From the NCBI RefSeq assembly GCF_013170705.1, contig NZ_CP033334.1, positions 3,387,501 to 3,451,500 of the forward strand: a stretch of 64,000 nucleotides of DNA, given 5' to 3'. This document shows positions 7,125 through 18,383 of the stretch, one piece after another. The notes beneath the pieces were generated by a model, which saw only the letters and a list, made by a program, of their open reading frames with translations, was not told the origin of the DNA and ran no database searches. Origin of the DNA: Mesorhizobium loti. GTDB lineage: Bacteria > Pseudomonadota > Alphaproteobacteria > Rhizobiales > Rhizobiaceae. A program made the position numbers and the translations under genes. Positions within the stretch are counted from its first letter, which is position 1; each line of letters starts with the position of its first letter.

Positions 7125-8225
7125 ATGACTGACCTGAAAGAAGCAACCCGCGCCCCCGACGCCGCCTGGCAGGACGATGTCCGCCAGGGCGTGCGCCATG
7201 TTCGCGATCTCGACCGCCTGCCGCTGTCGCCCGCCGAGCGTCAAGCCGCGCAGGAGGCCGCCAGCCGGCACAAGGTGCGTGCGCCGAAAGCCTATCTCGA
7301 CCTGATCGACTGGAACGACCCGGCCGACCCGATCCGCGCGCAGGTCATCCCGTCGCCCGGCGAACTGGTGGAAACGGAGGGCGAGCTTGGCGATCCGATC
7401 GCCGACCATGATTTCAGCCCGGTGCCCAGGCTGACGCATCGCCATGCCGACCGGGTGCTGTTGTTCCCAACCTATCAGTGCGCGGTCTATTGCCGCTTCT
7501 GCTTCCGCAAGGAATCGCTGACCTCGATCGGCCGCGGCTACACGCGCGAGGCGCTGGAGCCGGCGCTGGCCTATATCGCCGAGCATCCCGAAATCCGCGA
7601 GGTGATCCTGACCGGCGGCGATCCGCTGTCGCTGCCGGACAAGGCGATGGCCGAAATCTTCGCGCGCATCGAGGCCATTCCGCATGTTCGGCTCTTGCGC
7701 ATCCACACACGCGTGCCGGTGGTGCTGCCGACACGCGTCACATCAGGCCTGGTCGAAGCGCTGCAGGGCCGGCTGATGGTCACCGTCGTCACCCATTTCA
7801 ACCATGCCCGCGAGATAACCGACGCCGCCGAGGCGGCCTGCCGGACGATGCGGCAAGCCGGCTTCGTGCTGCTCAACCAAAGTGTTCTGCTGAAAGGCGT
7901 CAACGATAGCGTCGAGGTGCTGGAAGAGCTCTGCCGTGAACTGATGTATCGGCTCGGGGTAAAACCCTATTACCTGCACCATGGCGATCTCGCGCGCGGC
8001 ATGGCCCACCGCCGCACCACGATCGCCGAGGGCCAGGCGCTGGTGGAAGCGCTGAGGGCGCGGCTGTCGGGTATCTGCAATCCCGTCTACGTGCTCGACC
8101 TGCCGGAAGGCGGCGGCAAGGTGCCGCTCGGGCCGTGCTCCATCGAGGCGCGGGACGGGGAGAGCTGGCGGATACGCGGGCTGGATGGGCAGGTGAGGGA
8201 TTATCGCGAGATTCTGGCCGAATAG
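7125..8225 (+). CDS. kamA: KamA-like lysine 2,3-aminomutase (radical SAM, PLP)
   Basis: A 366-residue radical-SAM protein of the lysine 2,3-aminomutase family, which converts L-lysine to beta-lysine. The cluster cysteines are C119, C123 and C126 (CAVYCRFC). The PLP lysine is expected at K332 in LPEGGGKVP. D288 (HHGDLA) and D325 (VLDLPEGGGK) match the two aspartates that hold the lysine side chain in clostridial KamA. The GGGK motif and second aspartate argue against a plain EpmB (elongation-factor P modification) enzyme, which as I recall lacks them, and no efp or epmA is adjacent. I start at the ATG at 7125. It ends 8 bp from the convergent PPTase gene. Confidence 0.88.
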   Translation: MTDLKEATRAPDAAWQDDVRQGVRHVRDLDRLPLSPAERQAAQEAASRHKVRAPKAYLDLIDWNDPADPIRAQVIPSPGELVETEGELGDPIADHDFSPVPRLTHRHADRVLLFPTYQCAVYCRFCFRKESLTSIGRGYTREALEPALAYIAEHPEIREVILTGGDPLSLPDKAMAEIFARIEAIPHVRLLRIHTRVPVVLPTRVTSGLVEALQGRLMVTVVTHFNHAREITDAAEAACRTMRQAGFVLLNQSVLLKGVNDSVEVLEELCRELMYRLGVKPYYLHHGDLARGMAHRRTTIAEGQALVEALRARLSGICNPVYVLDLPEGGGKVPLGPCSIEARDGESWRIRGLDGQVRDYREILAE

Positions 8226-8233
8226 ACGATGCG

Positions 8234-8893
8234 TTATTCCCCGATAAACGCCAGTACGACCACGCGCGGGGCGATGCAGTAGACGAGGTTGGCGCTGCGG
8301 CCGGTCGTTGTCGTCGCGCGGCCTGTGTTCAGGTCCACGGTGATATCCTCGTAGCCCAGCACCTGGTGGTCCAGCGGATAGACGGCCTTGTAGACCGCTT
8401 CCTTGGCGGCAAAGAGGATGCGGCCGGCAAGATGCTGGTCGGCTGTATCCATCCGGTCCGCGCCGGTTGCAACGAGCGCGAAAACGTCATCGGGCAAGGG
8501 CAGCGCGGGCTCGACGTCGATACCGAGCGAGCTCATATCGGCAATGCGCGCGACCGCCGCCACGGCCATGTCGTCGTCATGAGCGAGCGAACCAATTGTC
8601 CCGTGGGGCCAGACCGGAGCACCTGACGGCGCGCGCGGGATGGCGATGTTCTTGATGCCGATGTCGGCCAGCAGGCGGTGCGCGATCCAGCGGGCCGCAC
8701 CGCTGGCTCGTCGCATGGCCGGCTGGCGGGCGGGGATGGAACGCGCCTCCTCGGGCAAAAGATGGGTCTCGTCGCCTTCGCGTATGAGCCGGCATCCGGT
8801 GCGGACCCCATGCGGGGCGATGGCGGCCAGTGCCTGCGCCAGGGAGCTTTCCTCGGGCAAATCCGGAGGCGAAGGATTCGCGGCGGGCCTCAT
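8234..8893 (-). CDS. 4'-phosphopantetheinyl transferase (EntD/Sfp type)
   Basis: A 219-residue transferase that moves phosphopantetheine from CoA to a carrier-protein serine. It has the EntD-type motifs GSLAHDDD, GIDVEP (Mg2+-binding Asp and Glu) and FAAKEAVYKA (catalytic Glu/Lys). It is the last gene of the minus-strand operon NRPS-GNAT-PPTase and overlaps the GNAT stop by four bases (ATGA). The linkage says its main client is the carrier domain of the NRPS at 9398-13525 (Ser605). Confidence 0.92.
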   Translation of the reverse strand: MRPAANPSPPDLPEESSLAQALAAIAPHGVRTGCRLIREGDETHLLPEEARSIPARQPAMRRASGAARWIAHRLLADIGIKNIAIPRAPSGAPVWPHGTIGSLAHDDDMAVAAVARIADMSSLGIDVEPALPLPDDVFALVATGADRMDTADQHLAGRILFAAKEAVYKAVYPLDHQVLGYEDITVDLNTGRATTTTGRSANLVYCIAPRVVVLAFIGE

Positions 8894-9372
8894 TGATCGC
8901 CCATCGATGCCGGCAGGGCGAGGTCGGCGATCATTTCGCCATCCTCGTCGAGCCCTTCTTCGACGAAACCGGCGGCACGGTAGAGCTGGCGTGCCGCTTC
9001 ATTCTCCGGCTCGTAGCAGATGGAGACGTGCCTGATGTGACCGAGCCCGCCGATTTCGCGCAGCACCTCGCGCAGCGCGGCCTTGCCGTAGCCCTTGCCC
9101 TGGCTGGCGCGGTCGATCATGAACCGATAGATGCGCGCCTCGTCGTCATCGCTTGGCGCCTCGTACATCAGGAACCCGACAACACGATCCCCGGCCATGA
9201 TCGCGCGCGGCCGCGCGTCATGATCGGATCTGGCTTCGCGCAGCGAGGCCGCGTTGCCCGCGACGAAATCCATCTGGTCGGGGGCCAGCCGCAGTGCTGC
9301 CACCAGGGCGCGATTGGCCGGGGTAAGCGGCGCGATCCGGATGTCGGGCGTGCTTCCGGATCGCTCTGTCAC
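8890..9372 (-). CDS. GNAT family N-acetyltransferase
   Basis: GNAT-fold acetyltransferase with the acetyl-CoA loop in RASQGKGYGKAALREVL and the terminal-strand motif ENEAARQLYRAAGF. Overall it resembles spermidine/diamine acetyltransferases. The GTG at 9372 has GGAGGT four bases upstream and gives 160 residues. An in-frame ATG at 9423 would give 177 residues, but lacks a Shine-Dalgarno and overlaps the NRPS end by 26 bp. It sits between the NRPS and the PPTase in one operon. A polyamine-like or (beta-)lysine amine is a reasonable guess for its substrate; it is shorter than AblB beta-lysine acetyltransferases. Confidence 0.88.
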   Translation of the reverse strand: MTERSGSTPDIRIAPLTPANRALVAALRLAPDQMDFVAGNAASLREARSDHDARPRAIMAGDRVVGFLMYEAPSDDDEARIYRFMIDRASQGKGYGKAALREVLREIGGLGHIRHVSICYEPENEAARQLYRAAGFVEEGLDEDGEMIADLALPASMGDQ

Positions 9373-9397
9373 GTGACCTCCGATGCTCTCGGGATCG

Positions 9398-12300
9398 TCA
9401 GGATGACGCCGTGGAGCCGTCATCCATGATCGGCTCGACGAAACGATGCAGCTTGGCCGGGTTGCCGCGCCAGATCGAGTTGGGCTCCAGCACTTCGCCT
9501 TTCATCACGAAGGAGTCGGCATCGACCATCGATCCCTTGCCCATGACGACGCCGTAGTGGACAAAGGCGGAGGGTCCGAGCGTGCAACCGTCACCGATGC
9601 GGATGAAGTCCGACTTGAACGCGCCTTCTTCCAGCGAATGGGCCTGGATGACGCAGCCCTCGTTGAGCGTGACGTCATCGCCGATCTCGACCAGCGAACG
9701 CTCGGTCAGGTTGCTGCCGCCGTCATAGACCCGCTTGCCGACCTTGACGCCCAGCATGCGCAGGATCACCGGCCGGAACGGCGTGCCGGCGAACAGGCGC
9801 ACGATCGGTGTATCGGCAAGCTTCCAATGGCGTTCGTGGCGCCAGAAGTCGACATCGTAGATCGTCGTCATCCGCGGCTTCAGCCGGCCAAAGCCAAGGC
9901 TTGCCCGCTCGACAAGAATGTAGAACGGAATGGTGATCGCCGAGGTCAGCATCACGGCGACGAAGAGGGCGACCTCGTTCCATTCGGTGTAGTAGTTCAA
10001 TGCCCGATCCCAGATCGCCAGCGTGGCGAACAGCATGACCCATTGGGCGGCAATGAACAGAAGGATCGTCACCAGGTTGTGGCGGTTCTTGAACGGGATG
10101 CGCTGGCGCCGGTCGGCCTCGTCGACGCCGGCGATGAGTTCCTTGTCGCGGTTCACCATGCGCGGGATCTCAAAGGCGGGCGAACCCAGGAGCCCGACAT
10201 TCTCGCGCACCGGGCCATCGATGGGGATCATCACCTTGGTGCCGAGCAGGACGTTGTCGCCCGTGCGGCCATCCGGCGGATAGTAGATGTTGTTGCCGAG
10301 ATAGTTGCGCTCGCCAATGCGTGTCGGCTCCAGCCGGAACGCCGAGGCGGATTTGTGCACATTGATCATGAACAGCCCGTCGGACACCATGGTCTCGGTG
10401 CCGATCTCGCACAGAAGCGGGTTTTCGTGCTGCTGGTTGGAGCCGAAATTGGAGCCGGTCTGCACCACCTTGTTGAGGTTCCAGCCGATGGCGCTCATAT
10501 AGTGGACGATGGCCGAGCTGTCGCCGAACAGCAGCCCCAGCACACGCGAGTTGCTCGAGAATTCCGAGACGGTCTGCAGCCAGTAGCGGAAGCCATAGAG
10601 CGTATAGGTGCGGCCCGGCTTCAGGATCAGGCTGAAAACGCGCGGCACCACCGTGGCGGCGAGAAAGGCCACGGCGATATAGCCGAACAGCGTGACCGTG
10701 GTGCCGATCGCGACAAGGCCGATCGTCTCCTGATAGTCGTCGCCGACATATTCCCAATAGCTGTGGAACAGGAGCGGCAGCGGGGTGATGACCGCGAACA
10801 GCAGCACCAGCTGGACGGCTTCATAGAGGAAACGCCGGACCTCGTAAGGGTTCGCGTTGCGCACCTTGCAATAGTCCGCCGTGGTCGGCACGGCCGGCGA
10901 TCCGTGCCAGTGCTCGCCGTCGGGAATGCTTTGCCCGCTCTGCAGCGAGGACGAATGGCCGAGCTGGCCACCGTCGCCGATCGAGGTGTCGATGTCGAGC
11001 GTGGAGCCGACGCCGACGAAGGCGTCGCGGCCGATGGTCAGCGGCCCGGTGTGGATATAGCCGGACTGGGCGCGATAGCCGAGGATCATCGATTCCTTGC
11101 GCAGGATGGTGTTGGCGCCGATCGAAATCAGGTCCGTGCAGACCGGCACGGATTTGGATTCGATGACGGCGTTGTGGCCGAGCTTGGTGCCGAGAAGCCG
11201 GAGATAGATGCTGTAGAGCGGGCTGCCGCGGAACAGCACGACGGGCGCAGTGCGGATCAGCGTCTTGACGACCCAGAAGCGATAGTAGCGCAGGCCCCAG
11301 ATGGGAAATGCCTCGGCCTTCCAGCGGCCGACAAGCAGCCATTTCGCGGCAACGGCAAAGCCCGACATGCCGAAGAACACGCCGGCGGAGAGCGCCACGC
11401 ACCTGATGTAAAGCTGCAGCGGCTCGTCGAGCGCGTCATAGACCCAGTCGAGGCCGTGGTCGAGGACCCACAGCGCGACATAGCTGTAGACAAGGTAGAA
11501 CGAAAGCTGGCCCGCTCCGCAGGTCCAGTAGACGAGGTTCGAGGCCCGGCGGGTGAGGACAGGCTCGAAGGTGGCCGTCGTCATCTCCTCCGCCATGGCC
11601 AGGTGCTTGGCCAGGCGCGCAACCGTCGGATAGAGATAGATGTCGCGCATGGACGTCGTCGCCCATTCCTTGCGGGTGCGAACGCGGGCGCAGAAATGAG
11701 CCATCAGCAGCGAGTTCGCGCCGAGATCGTCGAAGAAATTGTCCTCGACCGAGACCGCGTCGAATTTCAACACGGCGGCCAGCGCGTCGGCCAGGAAGCG
11801 CTCGTCGTCATTGCCGGGCGCGACCATCTCGCGGTCGGCGGAAAGCCGGACGCTTGTCGGCTTGGGAAGCTGGCGAAGATCCACCTTGTTGGAGACGGTC
11901 ATCGGGATCGCCGGCAGTTCCTCCAGATAGGAGGGCACCATGTAGTCCGGCAGGCGCCGCTTCATCGTCTGGGCGAGATCGGCGCGCGAGATCGCCGACG
12001 CCCCGGCCTTGGGCGCGTAATAGGCGACGAGCTCGACACGGCCGGGCTCGATCTCCCAGGTGGTGACGGCGGCCTGCGCGATGGCGGGCTGGTCCAGCAG
12101 CACCGCCTCGATCTCGCCGAGCTCGATGCGATAGCCGCGGATCTTCACCTGGGTGTCGATGCGCCCGTTATACTCGATCTCGCCATCGGCGTTGATCCGG
12201 CCAAGGTCGCCCGTGCGGTAGATGCGCTTCGACGGGTTGTTCGGCAGGCCGATGAAGTCGGGGATGAATTTCTGTTCGGTGAGGTCTTGCCTGTTGAGAT

Positions 12301-13525
12301 AGCCGATCGCGAGCCCGATGCCTGCGATGCCGATCTCGCCCAGTTCGCCAGGCTCGGCCAGTTCCGGCAGCGAAGGGTCGAGAATGACGATGGAATAGGT
12401 GGGCAGCGGCGCGCCGATGGTGACGGGCTTGTCCGGCGTCAGCGCGCCCATGGTCGCGGTGACGGTCGCCTCTGTCGGGCCGTAGGTGTTGAGGATCTGC
12501 CGCCCGGGCTTCGACCAGCGCACCACCAGATTGTGCGGGCAGGCCTCGCCGCCGACCAGGAGCGTGCGCAGGCTGGGCACGTCGCTGGCCATGGACGACA
12601 GCAGGGTCGGGCTGCAGGCCATGCAGGTGATGTCGTGATGCCGCAGGAAATCGGCGAGTTCCTCGCCGACGAGCGGCATCTGGCCGGGCGCGGGCACCAC
12701 CGTCGCACCGGCGACGAACGGCACCCAGATCTCCTCGGAGGAAAAGTCGAAGGCGATGGTCATGCCCTGGTAGACGCGGTCGCCCGGCCGGTAGCCATAG
12801 GATGCGGCGGCGACCCGGATGAAGTTGACGAAGCTCTGGTGCCGGACGGCCACGCCCTTCGGCCTGCCTGTCGTGCCCGAGGTGTAGAGGATGTAGCAGA
12901 TGTCTTCGACCGCGACGGAGGCCGGCGCCCTGTGCAGCTTCAGCGGCGCGTCGGACTGTCTGGAGATCTCGGCGGCGGCGCTGTCGATCAGCACGTGGGG
13001 AACCGGCAACTGGTCGGCGCGCGACGCATAGGTGGCGATGGTGACGATCAGGCTGACACTGGCGTCGTCGATGATCAGCGCCATGCGCTCTTGCGGAAAG
13101 GCGGTGGCCAGCGGCACGAAGGCGGCACCCGCCTTCACCACCGCGAGCACCGCGACATAGGTCTCCGCCGACCGGTCGAGGATAAGCCCGATCCGGTCGC
13201 CCGGCCGAACGCCGCGCTTGACGAGCAGGCGGGCGAACTGGTTGGCGCGCTTGTCGAGCTCCTGATACGTCCAGACACGTCCCTCGGAGATCACCGCCGG
13301 CAAGGCTGCGAATGTCTCGGCGAGCTCCTCGAAGACCGCGTCCAGCCGCTCATCGGGCCGGCCTGCCCGGGCGAAGTCCGCGCCGGTCAGAACCTGGCCG
13401 TGCGCGGCCGCGGACCGCTGGGCACTTCTTATGAGCGCATCGAAGCTCGCGACGCCGGCTTCGGGCGCTCCGTCCGGTCTTGCCGTGTCCCTGTCGAGTG
13501 CGGCGATATCGACACCGTGATCCAT
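9398..13525 (-). CDS. Pls/PosA-type non-ribosomal peptide synthetase
   Basis: A 1375-residue membrane NRPS with the layout of epsilon-poly-lysine synthetase (about 1320 residues). Adenylation domain about 60-560: A3 YILYTSGTTGRPKGV 211-225, A4 around D260, A5 NTYGPTEATV 346-355, A7 YRTGDLGR 436-443, A8 454-473, A10 lysine K547. Carrier domain about 575-645 with Ser605 in DLGANSLL. Six membrane segments near 671-692, 703-730, 901-925, 934-960, 1150-1172 and 1184-1206 separate three soluble C-terminal domains that carry hexapeptide-repeat-like (left-handed helix) stretches. There is no condensation or thioesterase domain. In Pls the three soluble domains join monomers by isopeptide bonds. I start at the ATG at 13525; upstream codons have poor coding character. 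The monomer is inferred, not shown; E264 in the pocket region would suit a basic residue. Confidence 0.93.
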   Translation of the reverse strand: MDHGVDIAALDRDTARPDGAPEAGVASFDALIRSAQRSAAAHGQVLTGADFARAGRPDERLDAVFEELAETFAALPAVISEGRVWTYQELDKRANQFARLLVKRGVRPGDRIGLILDRSAETYVAVLAVVKAGAAFVPLATAFPQERMALIIDDASVSLIVTIATYASRADQLPVPHVLIDSAAAEISRQSDAPLKLHRAPASVAVEDICYILYTSGTTGRPKGVAVRHQSFVNFIRVAAASYGYRPGDRVYQGMTIAFDFSSEEIWVPFVAGATVVPAPGQMPLVGEELADFLRHHDITCMACSPTLLSSMASDVPSLRTLLVGGEACPHNLVVRWSKPGRQILNTYGPTEATVTATMGALTPDKPVTIGAPLPTYSIVILDPSLPELAEPGELGEIGIAGIGLAIGYLNRQDLTEQKFIPDFIGLPNNPSKRIYRTGDLGRINADGEIEYNGRIDTQVKIRGYRIELGEIEAVLLDQPAIAQAAVTTWEIEPGRVELVAYYAPKAGASAISRADLAQTMKRRLPDYMVPSYLEELPAIPMTVSNKVDLRQLPKPTSVRLSADREMVAPGNDDERFLADALAAVLKFDAVSVEDNFFDDLGANSLLMAHFCARVRTRKEWATTSMRDIYLYPTVARLAKHLAMAEEMTTATFEPVLTRRASNLVYWTCGAGQLSFYLVYSYVALWVLDHGLDWVYDALDEPLQLYIRCVALSAGVFFGMSGFAVAAKWLLVGRWKAEAFPIWGLRYYRFWVVKTLIRTAPVVLFRGSPLYSIYLRLLGTKLGHNAVIESKSVPVCTDLISIGANTILRKESMILGYRAQSGYIHTGPLTIGRDAFVGVGSTLDIDTSIGDGGQLGHSSSLQSGQSIPDGEHWHGSPAVPTTADYCKVRNANPYEVRRFLYEAVQLVLLFAVITPLPLLFHSYWEYVGDDYQETIGLVAIGTTVTLFGYIAVAFLAATVVPRVFSLILKPGRTYTLYGFRYWLQTVSEFSSNSRVLGLLFGDSSAIVHYMSAIGWNLNKVVQTGSNFGSNQQHENPLLCEIGTETMVSDGLFMINVHKSASAFRLEPTRIGERNYLGNNIYYPPDGRTGDNVLLGTKVMIPIDGPVRENVGLLGSPAFEIPRMVNRDKELIAGVDEADRRQRIPFKNRHNLVTILLFIAAQWVMLFATLAIWDRALNYYTEWNEVALFVAVMLTSAITIPFYILVERASLGFGRLKPRMTTIYDVDFWRHERHWKLADTPIVRLFAGTPFRPVILRMLGVKVGKRVYDGGSNLTERSLVEIGDDVTLNEGCVIQAHSLEEGAFKSDFIRIGDGCTLGPSAFVHYGVVMGKGSMVDADSFVMKGEVLEPNSIWRGNPAKLHRFVEPIMDDGSTASS

Positions 13526-17273: not shown

Positions 17274-17411
17274 GTTCAGGGGTCGGGCCCCCTCCTCGAG
17301 GTCCCGACCCGGTCCGCACTCAGGACGGAGGGCCATGTGGCGTGGCCCTCCGTCACCCCGGAGTTTCTCGCCTTCCGACTTTGCCGCCACCGCAACCCAC
17401 AGGAGACCACC

Positions 17412-18383
17412 ATGTTCAGCATGACACGCCGCACAGTGCTTCAATCCGCCGCCGCCGCCGCCGCCTTCGGTCTTGCCGGCAAGCTCGAGTTCACGCGTCC
17501 CGCTTTCGCGGAACTGCTGGTCGAGCCGACCATCGGCTTCTACAAATACACGGTCGGCGATATCGAGGTGACCGCCATCTATGACGGCATCTGGAAGAAG
17601 CCGCACGACCCGGCCTTCATCAAGGATGTCTCGGTCGACGAGACCAAGGCGGCGCTTGCCAAGGCGGGGCTGACCACCGACTTCATGCCCATCCCGCTCA
17701 CCGTCGTCGTGCTCAAGATGGGCGGCAAGCTGATCATGATGGATGCCGGCTCGGGCGTCGGCCAGTGGCAGGCCAATGCCACGCATCTGCCGGCCAACAT
17801 GGCCGCCGCCGGCATCGACTACAAGGCGATCGACACCATCATGATCTCGCATTTCCACCCCGACCATGTCTGGGGCCTGATGGAGAAGGGCACCAACACG
17901 CCGGTGTTCCCCAATGCCGAGCTGATCGTCAACGCGACCGAGTACAATTGGTGGACCGATCCGAGCCGGCTGGCCAAGCTGCCCGAGGGCCGCAAGCCGG
18001 CGGGCAAGCGCATCGCCGAAAACTTCCCGAAATGGAAGAACTGGAAGCTGGTCCAGGACGGCGCGGAAGTGGCGCCCGGCATCCAGATCATCGCAGCACC
18101 CGGCCACACGCCGGGACATTCCGTCTACCTCGCCAATTCCGGCAAGGAGCAGCTGATGATCTCGGCCGACACCATGTATGTGCCGGCCCTTCTGGCGCCG
18201 CATCCGGAATGGCAGGGCAGCTACGACCAGGACGGGCCCACCGCCATTACCACGCGCCACAAGATCATCGACCGGGTGATCGCGGACAACATCCGCATTT
18301 CCGGTTCGCACTTCCCGTTCCCCGGCACCGGCGTCTTCGTCAAGGACGGCAGCGCCTACGGCTTCACACCCGTTCAAATTTGA
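17412..18383 (+). CDS. Exported MBL-fold metallo-hydrolase
   Basis: A 323-residue metallo-beta-lactamase-fold hydrolase. The N-terminus MTRRTVLQSAAAAAAFGLAG is a twin-arginine-like export signal followed by an Ala-rich core and AFA. The metal motif HxHxDH appears as SHFHPDHVWG, followed later by GHTPGHS and SGSHFPFPGTG. The fold serves lactonases, glyoxalases, sulfatases and others, so the substrate is open; periplasmic action is expected. AGGAGACC precedes the ATG at 17412. It is followed within 31 bp by a TPR protein and then DoxX, likely one unit. Confidence 0.9.
   Translation: MFSMTRRTVLQSAAAAAAFGLAGKLEFTRPAFAELLVEPTIGFYKYTVGDIEVTAIYDGIWKKPHDPAFIKDVSVDETKAALAKAGLTTDFMPIPLTVVVLKMGGKLIMMDAGSGVGQWQANATHLPANMAAAGIDYKAIDTIMISHFHPDHVWGLMEKGTNTPVFPNAELIVNATEYNWWTDPSRLAKLPEGRKPAGKRIAENFPKWKNWKLVQDGAEVAPGIQIIAAPGHTPGHSVYLANSGKEQLMISADTMYVPALLAPHPEWQGSYDQDGPTAITTRHKIIDRVIADNIRISGSHFPFPGTGVFVKDGSAYGFTPVQI

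Follow-up and report, generated by a model that had tools for sequence, protein, structure and literature searches.

The 64,000-nucleotide stretch analysed here (the window) is derived from Mesorhizobium loti (contig NZ_CP033334.1, positions 3,387,501 to 3,451,500 of the forward strand), whose whole genome is a single contig of 6.87 Mb. It contains a putative operon for a nonribosomal peptide synthetase (NRPS) of the Pls/PosA type, a GNAT N-acetyltransferase and a 4'-phosphopantetheinyl transferase (PPTase). In our judgement, the operon probably produces a short-diamino-acid isopeptide polycation that is probably acetylated at its amines, and the adjoining KamA-family aminomutase is a bystander. 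The gene identities, the operon overlaps, the conservation, the adenylation code and the separability of KamA were read from the sequence. The features are as follows:

9398..13525, minus strand: Pls/PosA-family NRPS-like synthetase, 1375 amino acids (start codon inferred; the frame is open to 13876)
11861..13333, minus strand: adenylation domain of the synthetase, residues 65-555
11600..11797, minus strand: carrier domain, residues 577-642, with the phosphopantetheine site Ser605
9455..11521, minus strand: Pls/PosA C-terminal membrane and tandem acyltransferase-like region, residues 669-1357 (TIGR02353)
8890..9423, minus strand: GNAT N-acetyltransferase, 177 amino acids; among solved structures, nearest in sequence to spermine/spermidine acetyltransferases
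8234..8893, minus strand: PPTase, 219 amino acids
7125..8225, plus strand: KamA-family radical SAM aminomutase, a convergent neighbour judged to lie outside the cassette

All four genes are stop-free open frames. The NRPS and GNAT genes overlap by 26 bp and the GNAT and PPTase genes by 4 bp, an arrangement like that of operons with translational coupling. The KamA gene lies on the opposite strand and its end is 8 bp away from the end of the PPTase gene; genes and spacing are as described in an earlier, sequence-only reading of this DNA. The gene and family matches are far above chance, and only the link between KamA and the NRPS is doubtful. Among named organisms, Mesorhizobium strains have the loci most closely related to this one, and the NRPS C-terminus is 96% identical to that of M. 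erdmanii. None of the four proteins matched any PADLOC family.

Pfam matches in the NRPS include AMP-binding, AMP-binding_C, PP-binding and hexapeptide families, and none of the five families that Pfam lists for the protein is a condensation or thioesterase family. TIGR02353 matches residues 669-1357 with 935 bits (cut-off 423.1), and no other protein of the genome passes this cut-off. The carrier residue Ser605 sits within the motif LGANSLL. Six membrane segments are plausible, because the hydropathy profile shows five peaks clearly and a sixth, at about residues 670-688, weakly. An adenylation and a carrier domain, the lack of condensation and thioesterase domains and a TIGR02353 match above cut-off place the protein in the Pls/PosA class, which upholds the synthetase family proposed earlier. 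The same score supports the proposal that the operon encodes a candidate Pls/PosA-type synthetase for a cationic homopolymer, together with its own PPTase and acetyltransferase. Among more distant proteins annotated as Pls/PosA, a 911-amino-acid protein of Streptomyces mirabilis (L363:5722-8457) and a 1034-amino-acid protein of Arthrobacter (L366:5380-8484) have no aligned code region of the adenylation domain; the family may therefore include terminal regions that lack a complete adenylation domain.

Alignment to PosA, at code positions that we take to follow those of GrsA, yields the adenylation code D260 F261 E264 A303 L323 G325 T347 V355 T356 K547 (DFEALGTVTK), with Asp (D260) and Glu (E264) at positions 1 and 3. 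In PosA, these two residues are essential and needed for diamino acids, and position 2 has been proposed to set the chain length, with Phe in the synthetases of poly-diaminopropionate (PDAP) and poly-diaminobutyrate (PDAB), Met in PosA and Ala in Pls (PMC10522769; this and the other papers are cited from the portions available to us). The window enzyme has Phe261 at position 2, as in PDAB and PDAP synthetases, and thus lacks the Ala of epsilon-poly-lysine synthetases; its code also does not match DGESISVVNK of the epsilon-poly-beta-lysine synthetase (PMC10522769). An Ala-type code, DAESIGTVVK, was read in a Kitasatospora and a Rhodococcus opacus member of the family and fits the published position-2 rule. 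Among 80 NRPS loci from genome_contigs, which are the best 80 of 345 confirmed ones and hence biased to close relatives, some of them cut by contig ends, 71 have DFEALGTVTK, eight DFEAMGTVTK and one DFEALGTITK; stops are present in two of these loci (L306, L339).

The window code is identical at seven of ten positions, including Phe at position 2, to DFECLSAVTK. Six loci of relatives carry the code DFECLS[AV]VTK, and in four of them, which belong to three lineages, the NRPS gene is next to a gene for a diaminobutyrate transaminase. In Skermanella rosea and S. mucosa, ectB is located upstream of the NRPS, and a Rhizobiaceae genome (L108) encodes next to its NRPS an EctB homologue, assigned by homology, that is 61% identical to that of Skermanella. 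In Streptomyces NBC_01527 (DFECLSAVTK), a transaminase (dat) and an aspartate kinase (ask) follow downstream, the context named for PDAB loci (PMC8117764). The remaining two loci are from Paenarthrobacter (L352), with no diaminobutyrate transaminase annotated within 9 kb, and from a contig of just 5.7 kb (L107). A linked or genomic supply gene is regarded here as supporting context and not as a strict definition of a PDAB synthetase. Given the Phe-type code and the transaminase-linked relatives, a short-chain diamino acid is favoured as monomer, most likely L-2,4-diaminobutyrate (DAB) or L-2,3-diaminopropionate (DAP); a choice between the two is not made, because the genome has no diaminobutyrate transaminase (Dat) over cut-off.

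The 80 loci contain a PPTase homologue in 75 cases and a GNAT in 64, and neither in three. Apart from frames that overlap the cassette, every other family obtained by clustering the open frames of 55 of these loci is present in 12 loci at most. NRPS-(GNAT)-PPTase is thus the part that is conserved. Plasmid copies of the NRPS are accompanied by GNAT and PPTase in Aureimonas, by GNAT alone in Phyllobacterium T1293 and by PPTase in Shinella.

Among solved structures, spermine/spermidine acetyltransferases are the first matches of the GNAT protein (E 3.6e-13 with the single sequence and 1.7e-23 with a profile), and the diaminobutyrate acetyltransferase EctA matches weakly (0.0015 and 0.0009, respectively). 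The predicted GNAT structure has a mean pLDDT of 79.6. Because these nearest solved relatives are named spermine/spermidine acetyltransferases, the earlier suggestion of a perhaps N-acetylated product appears reasonable. For a distant comparison, 15 annotated plasmid Pls/PosA loci (L352-L354 and L357-L368) were inspected. An acetyltransferase is part of the same adjoining gene run in three of them, one from Sphingomonas and two from Rhodococcus, and in none of the other 12, two of which have a GNAT gene farther off (about 8 kb in L352 and about 3.4 kb in L363). The Sphingomonas locus (code DMEHNGTVTK) contains a PPTase and then a GNAT, neither with detectable BLAST similarity to those of the window. 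The Rhodococcus plasmids (L354:8941-14992 and L360:5920-11998) encode, in overlapping order, a synthetase with the code DFEYLGTVTK, a BPL-N protein and an HGSNAT-type acetyltransferase. As other types of acetyltransferase adjoin the synthetases in these two genera, polymers of the Pls/PosA class may have acquired acetylation repeatedly, which is suggestive and no proof.

For the monomer, its polymerisation, its export, the target of acetylation and the role of KamA, we infer the following model. The PPTase would load phosphopantetheine onto Ser605, and the adenylation domain would activate a short-chain diamino acid, most likely DAB or DAP. The C-terminal membrane and tandem region would then polymerise the monomer via its side-chain amines, in the manner of Pls and PosA, and the resulting short isopeptide polycation would probably be exported. 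The GNAT could acetylate amines of the product, of the chain end or of the monomer and so lower charge or self-toxicity. KamA would be a positional neighbour that probably serves elongation factor P (EF-P) together with EpmA. More tentatively, the cassette could be one that is widespread in Alphaproteobacteria and yields a short-diamino-acid polycation with partial N-acetylation, in which a dedicated acetyltransferase of the polyamine type tunes the charge.

KamA was previously considered to be a possible source of beta-lysine, based in part on the conserved residues D288, D325 and K332. These residues, for which we take numbering and roles from the clostridial aminomutase, are indeed present. 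They are also kept in 38 of the 39 KamA proteins of the family survey described below, most of which are EpmA-linked, and are thus no sign that the enzyme is dedicated to beta-lysine; in E. coli EpmB, the corresponding residues are D, E and K. The window KamA is the sole family member found in its genome and passes only the general model TIGR00238. It stays under the cut-offs for EpmB (TIGR03821, 278.4 versus 369.3) and AblA_like_2 (TIGR03822, 361.8 versus 396.25), the latter being scored with 583 by an EpmA-linked relative. It is 43-51% identical to 32 EpmA-linked KamA proteins, which have a median identity of 70% among themselves. A tree calculated from a chosen subset of 53 rows groups the rows of the genus in one clade and 35 other rows of the order in a second, and leaves the family row L091 and four extra paralogues outside both; both trees calculated were quick ones in which meeting long branches were flagged. 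The extra paralogues are found in four genomes of the genus (G550, G612, G613 and G623; L171-L174), are 35-38% identical to the window KamA and have higher TIGR00238 scores. On the identity values and the separate clade, the reading of KamA as a simply relocated Rhizobiaceae EpmB was rejected. An AblA/AblB pair for the osmolyte N-epsilon-acetyl-beta-lysine was likewise rejected (AblA 313 versus 525.4; no AblB among the seven families listed for the GNAT).

EpmA and EpmB modify Lys34 of EF-P at its PGKG loop. The M. loti genome encodes EpmA (383.8 bits) and two EF-P proteins (L110:9588-10271 and L052:1495-2061), both with the PGKG loop lysine, so that KamA co-occurs with EpmA and the EF-P lysine as an EpmB does. 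One of the two EF-P genes is divergent from epmA. KamA thus probably serves EF-P together with EpmA, and the evidence for this role is co-occurrence, because the KamA of the genus belongs to a lineage separate from the EpmA-linked ones.

Two surveys address whether KamA belongs to the cassette. Among 151 genomes of the family (KamA counted to E 1e-40, EpmA over cut-off), 39 contain KamA, 41 EpmA and 38 both, and 12 contain the NRPS. KamA and EpmA are encoded within 1 kb on one strand in 32 of the 38 genomes, and the six exceptions include the window genome and its congener G073. Eight of the 12 NRPS genomes have KamA and the same eight have EpmA; the other four have neither. In 99 genomes of the genus, where draft contig ends may hide neighbours, KamA is present in 87, EpmA in 93 and the NRPS in 59. 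EpmA is found in 84 of the 87 KamA genomes, and KamA is missing from nine of the 93 EpmA genomes. Both associations are weak and uncorrected for kinship in the genus (both genes, KamA only, partner only, neither: KamA-EpmA 84/3/9/3, p 0.02; KamA-NRPS 55/32/4/8, p 0.06).

The sequence-only reading had proposed that KamA supplies beta-lysine, or that lysine is used, for the production of poly-lysine or poly-beta-lysine. This is consistent with the distance between KamA and the NRPS, which is no more than 15 kb in 30 of the 59 NRPS genomes of the genus, with the lysine-type residues of KamA, with its separate lineage, which scores under the curated thresholds for specific KamA subfamilies, and with the lack of a Dat over cut-off. 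Against it, the code DFEALGTVTK has Phe, neither Ala nor Gly, at the chain-length position. In addition, KamA is located elsewhere in 25 of the 59 genomes and absent from four, and 32 genomes of the genus have KamA without the NRPS. The 30 genomes with KamA nearby are all among the 36 in which the NRPS scores at least 896 bits, and none of the other 23 has it within 15 kb. In the 80 loci, KamA is close to the NRPS in 29, all from Mesorhizobium. Three loci (L236, L238 and L268) show KamA followed by a homologue of the MBL gene at 17337-18383 of the window, with no cassette between them (an AraC gene in L236), and in two of these genomes (G570, G602) the cassette is placed elsewhere (L242, L246). 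In L250, L257 and L260, the cassette is near KamA and other DNA separates them. Where the cassette adjoins KamA, the other flanking genes (MBL, SDR, LysR, NmrA) are often kept too, in many of the same genomes. Thus, the adjacency of KamA and NRPS is explained by position, since the two are separable and other flanks are co-retained. The check for co-occurrence speaks against the functional link proposed earlier, as KamA is separable across the genus and, in the family survey, is tied more closely to EpmA than to the NRPS. On this check and the locus comparisons, KamA was rejected as a pathway enzyme of the cassette. A lysine or beta-lysine polymer is therefore very improbable.

Several observations weigh against our preferred model of an acetylated short-diamino-acid polymer. 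The best Dat match of the genome reaches 281 bits versus a cut-off of 401.6 (DAP genes were not searched), and Dat is over cut-off in 55 of the 99 genomes of the genus; the 64-kb window has no EctB-like match. In 16 of the 80 loci no GNAT was found, so that the cassette does not always include one. Three code positions differ from DFECLSAVTK, two of them (G and T) as in PosA, and a longer or unusual monomer is therefore possible. In vitro, beta-lysine and DAB are weak substrates of the adenylation domain of PDAP synthetase (PMC4668381), which also favours the lysine-type alternative. In the family, finally, KamA is associated with the NRPS (8/12 versus 31/139, Fisher p 0.002, uncorrected for kinship); the same eight genomes have EpmA.

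An alternative product is delta-poly-ornithine, or a polymer built from a different diamino acid that is available, with a code that is simply divergent. Ornithine requires no special pathway, the genome has no Dat over cut-off, and the D, E, G, T, V and K residues of the code are shared with PosA. On the other hand, Phe replaces the chain-length residue Met218 of PosA and positions 4, 5 and 9 differ too, which makes this alternative unlikely. More improbable still is that the NRPS attaches or transfers a single amino acid without a free homopolymer, with GNAT and PPTase for tailoring and activation: no polymer is shown for a member of the Hyphomicrobiales in the portions of the literature examined and the C-terminal region was judged by family resemblance only, but the full-length TIGR02353 match is to a family named for the polymerising enzymes Pls and PosA (PMC10522769). 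Our preferred reading thus keeps a polycation synthetase and leaves lysine or beta-lysine unsupported, and the acetyltransferase merits more attention than KamA. The locus also cautions that gene adjacency can mislead substrate prediction.

Homopoly-amino-acids have been called rare in nature and of unclear biological significance (PMC9606270). A compact cassette in rhizobia and their relatives, with its own activating enzyme and acetyltransferase, offers a tractable Gram-negative system for studying the role of such polymers and the regulation of their charge. An account of a Pls/PosA-GNAT-PPTase cassette was not found in the open-licence literature searched, which is a weak negative.

Several characterised systems resemble parts of the locus. 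EpmB, which acts in EF-P beta-lysylation, shares the KamA family, and the window KamA is the only copy found in a genome with EpmA and two PGKG-type EF-Ps; in contrast to EpmB, it does not adjoin epmA and stays under the EpmB and AblA_like_2 cut-offs. The epsilon-poly-L-lysine synthetase Pls (PDB 7WEW) has the same family and architecture, but lysine enzymes carry Ala and not Phe at position 2 (PMC10522769). The epsilon-poly-beta-lysine synthetase of Streptoalloteichus hindustanus belongs to the same family and differs in its code (PMC10522769). Rhizobial homologues with the code DLEDIGTV(T/V/I)K have been mentioned (PMC10522769), which share family and rhizobial hosts with the window but not the code. 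Relatives of about this type were also read here (L109, DLEDIGSVVK; L368, DLEDIGTVVK); the C-terminal regions of this type are about 22-25% identical to that of the window, and L368 also adjoins a PPTase. Among solved structures, PosA, the delta-poly-L-ornithine synthetase of Acinetobacter baumannii (PDB 8G95-8G98), matches the pocket region best, and it shares the adenylation/carrier/C-terminal architecture and the D and E pocket residues. It differs in its code, DMEHNGTVSK, and in its reported single-gene operon (PMC10522769), whereas GNAT and PPTase follow the window synthetase. The actinobacterial synthetases of gamma-PDAB and beta-PDAP share Phe at position 2 (PMC10522769), and the window code is identical at seven of ten positions to that of the Streptomyces enzyme in a dat/ask run. 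In contrast to these synthetases, whose published codes were compared at position 2, the window has no EctB-like gene and combines its synthetase with a GNAT and a PPTase.

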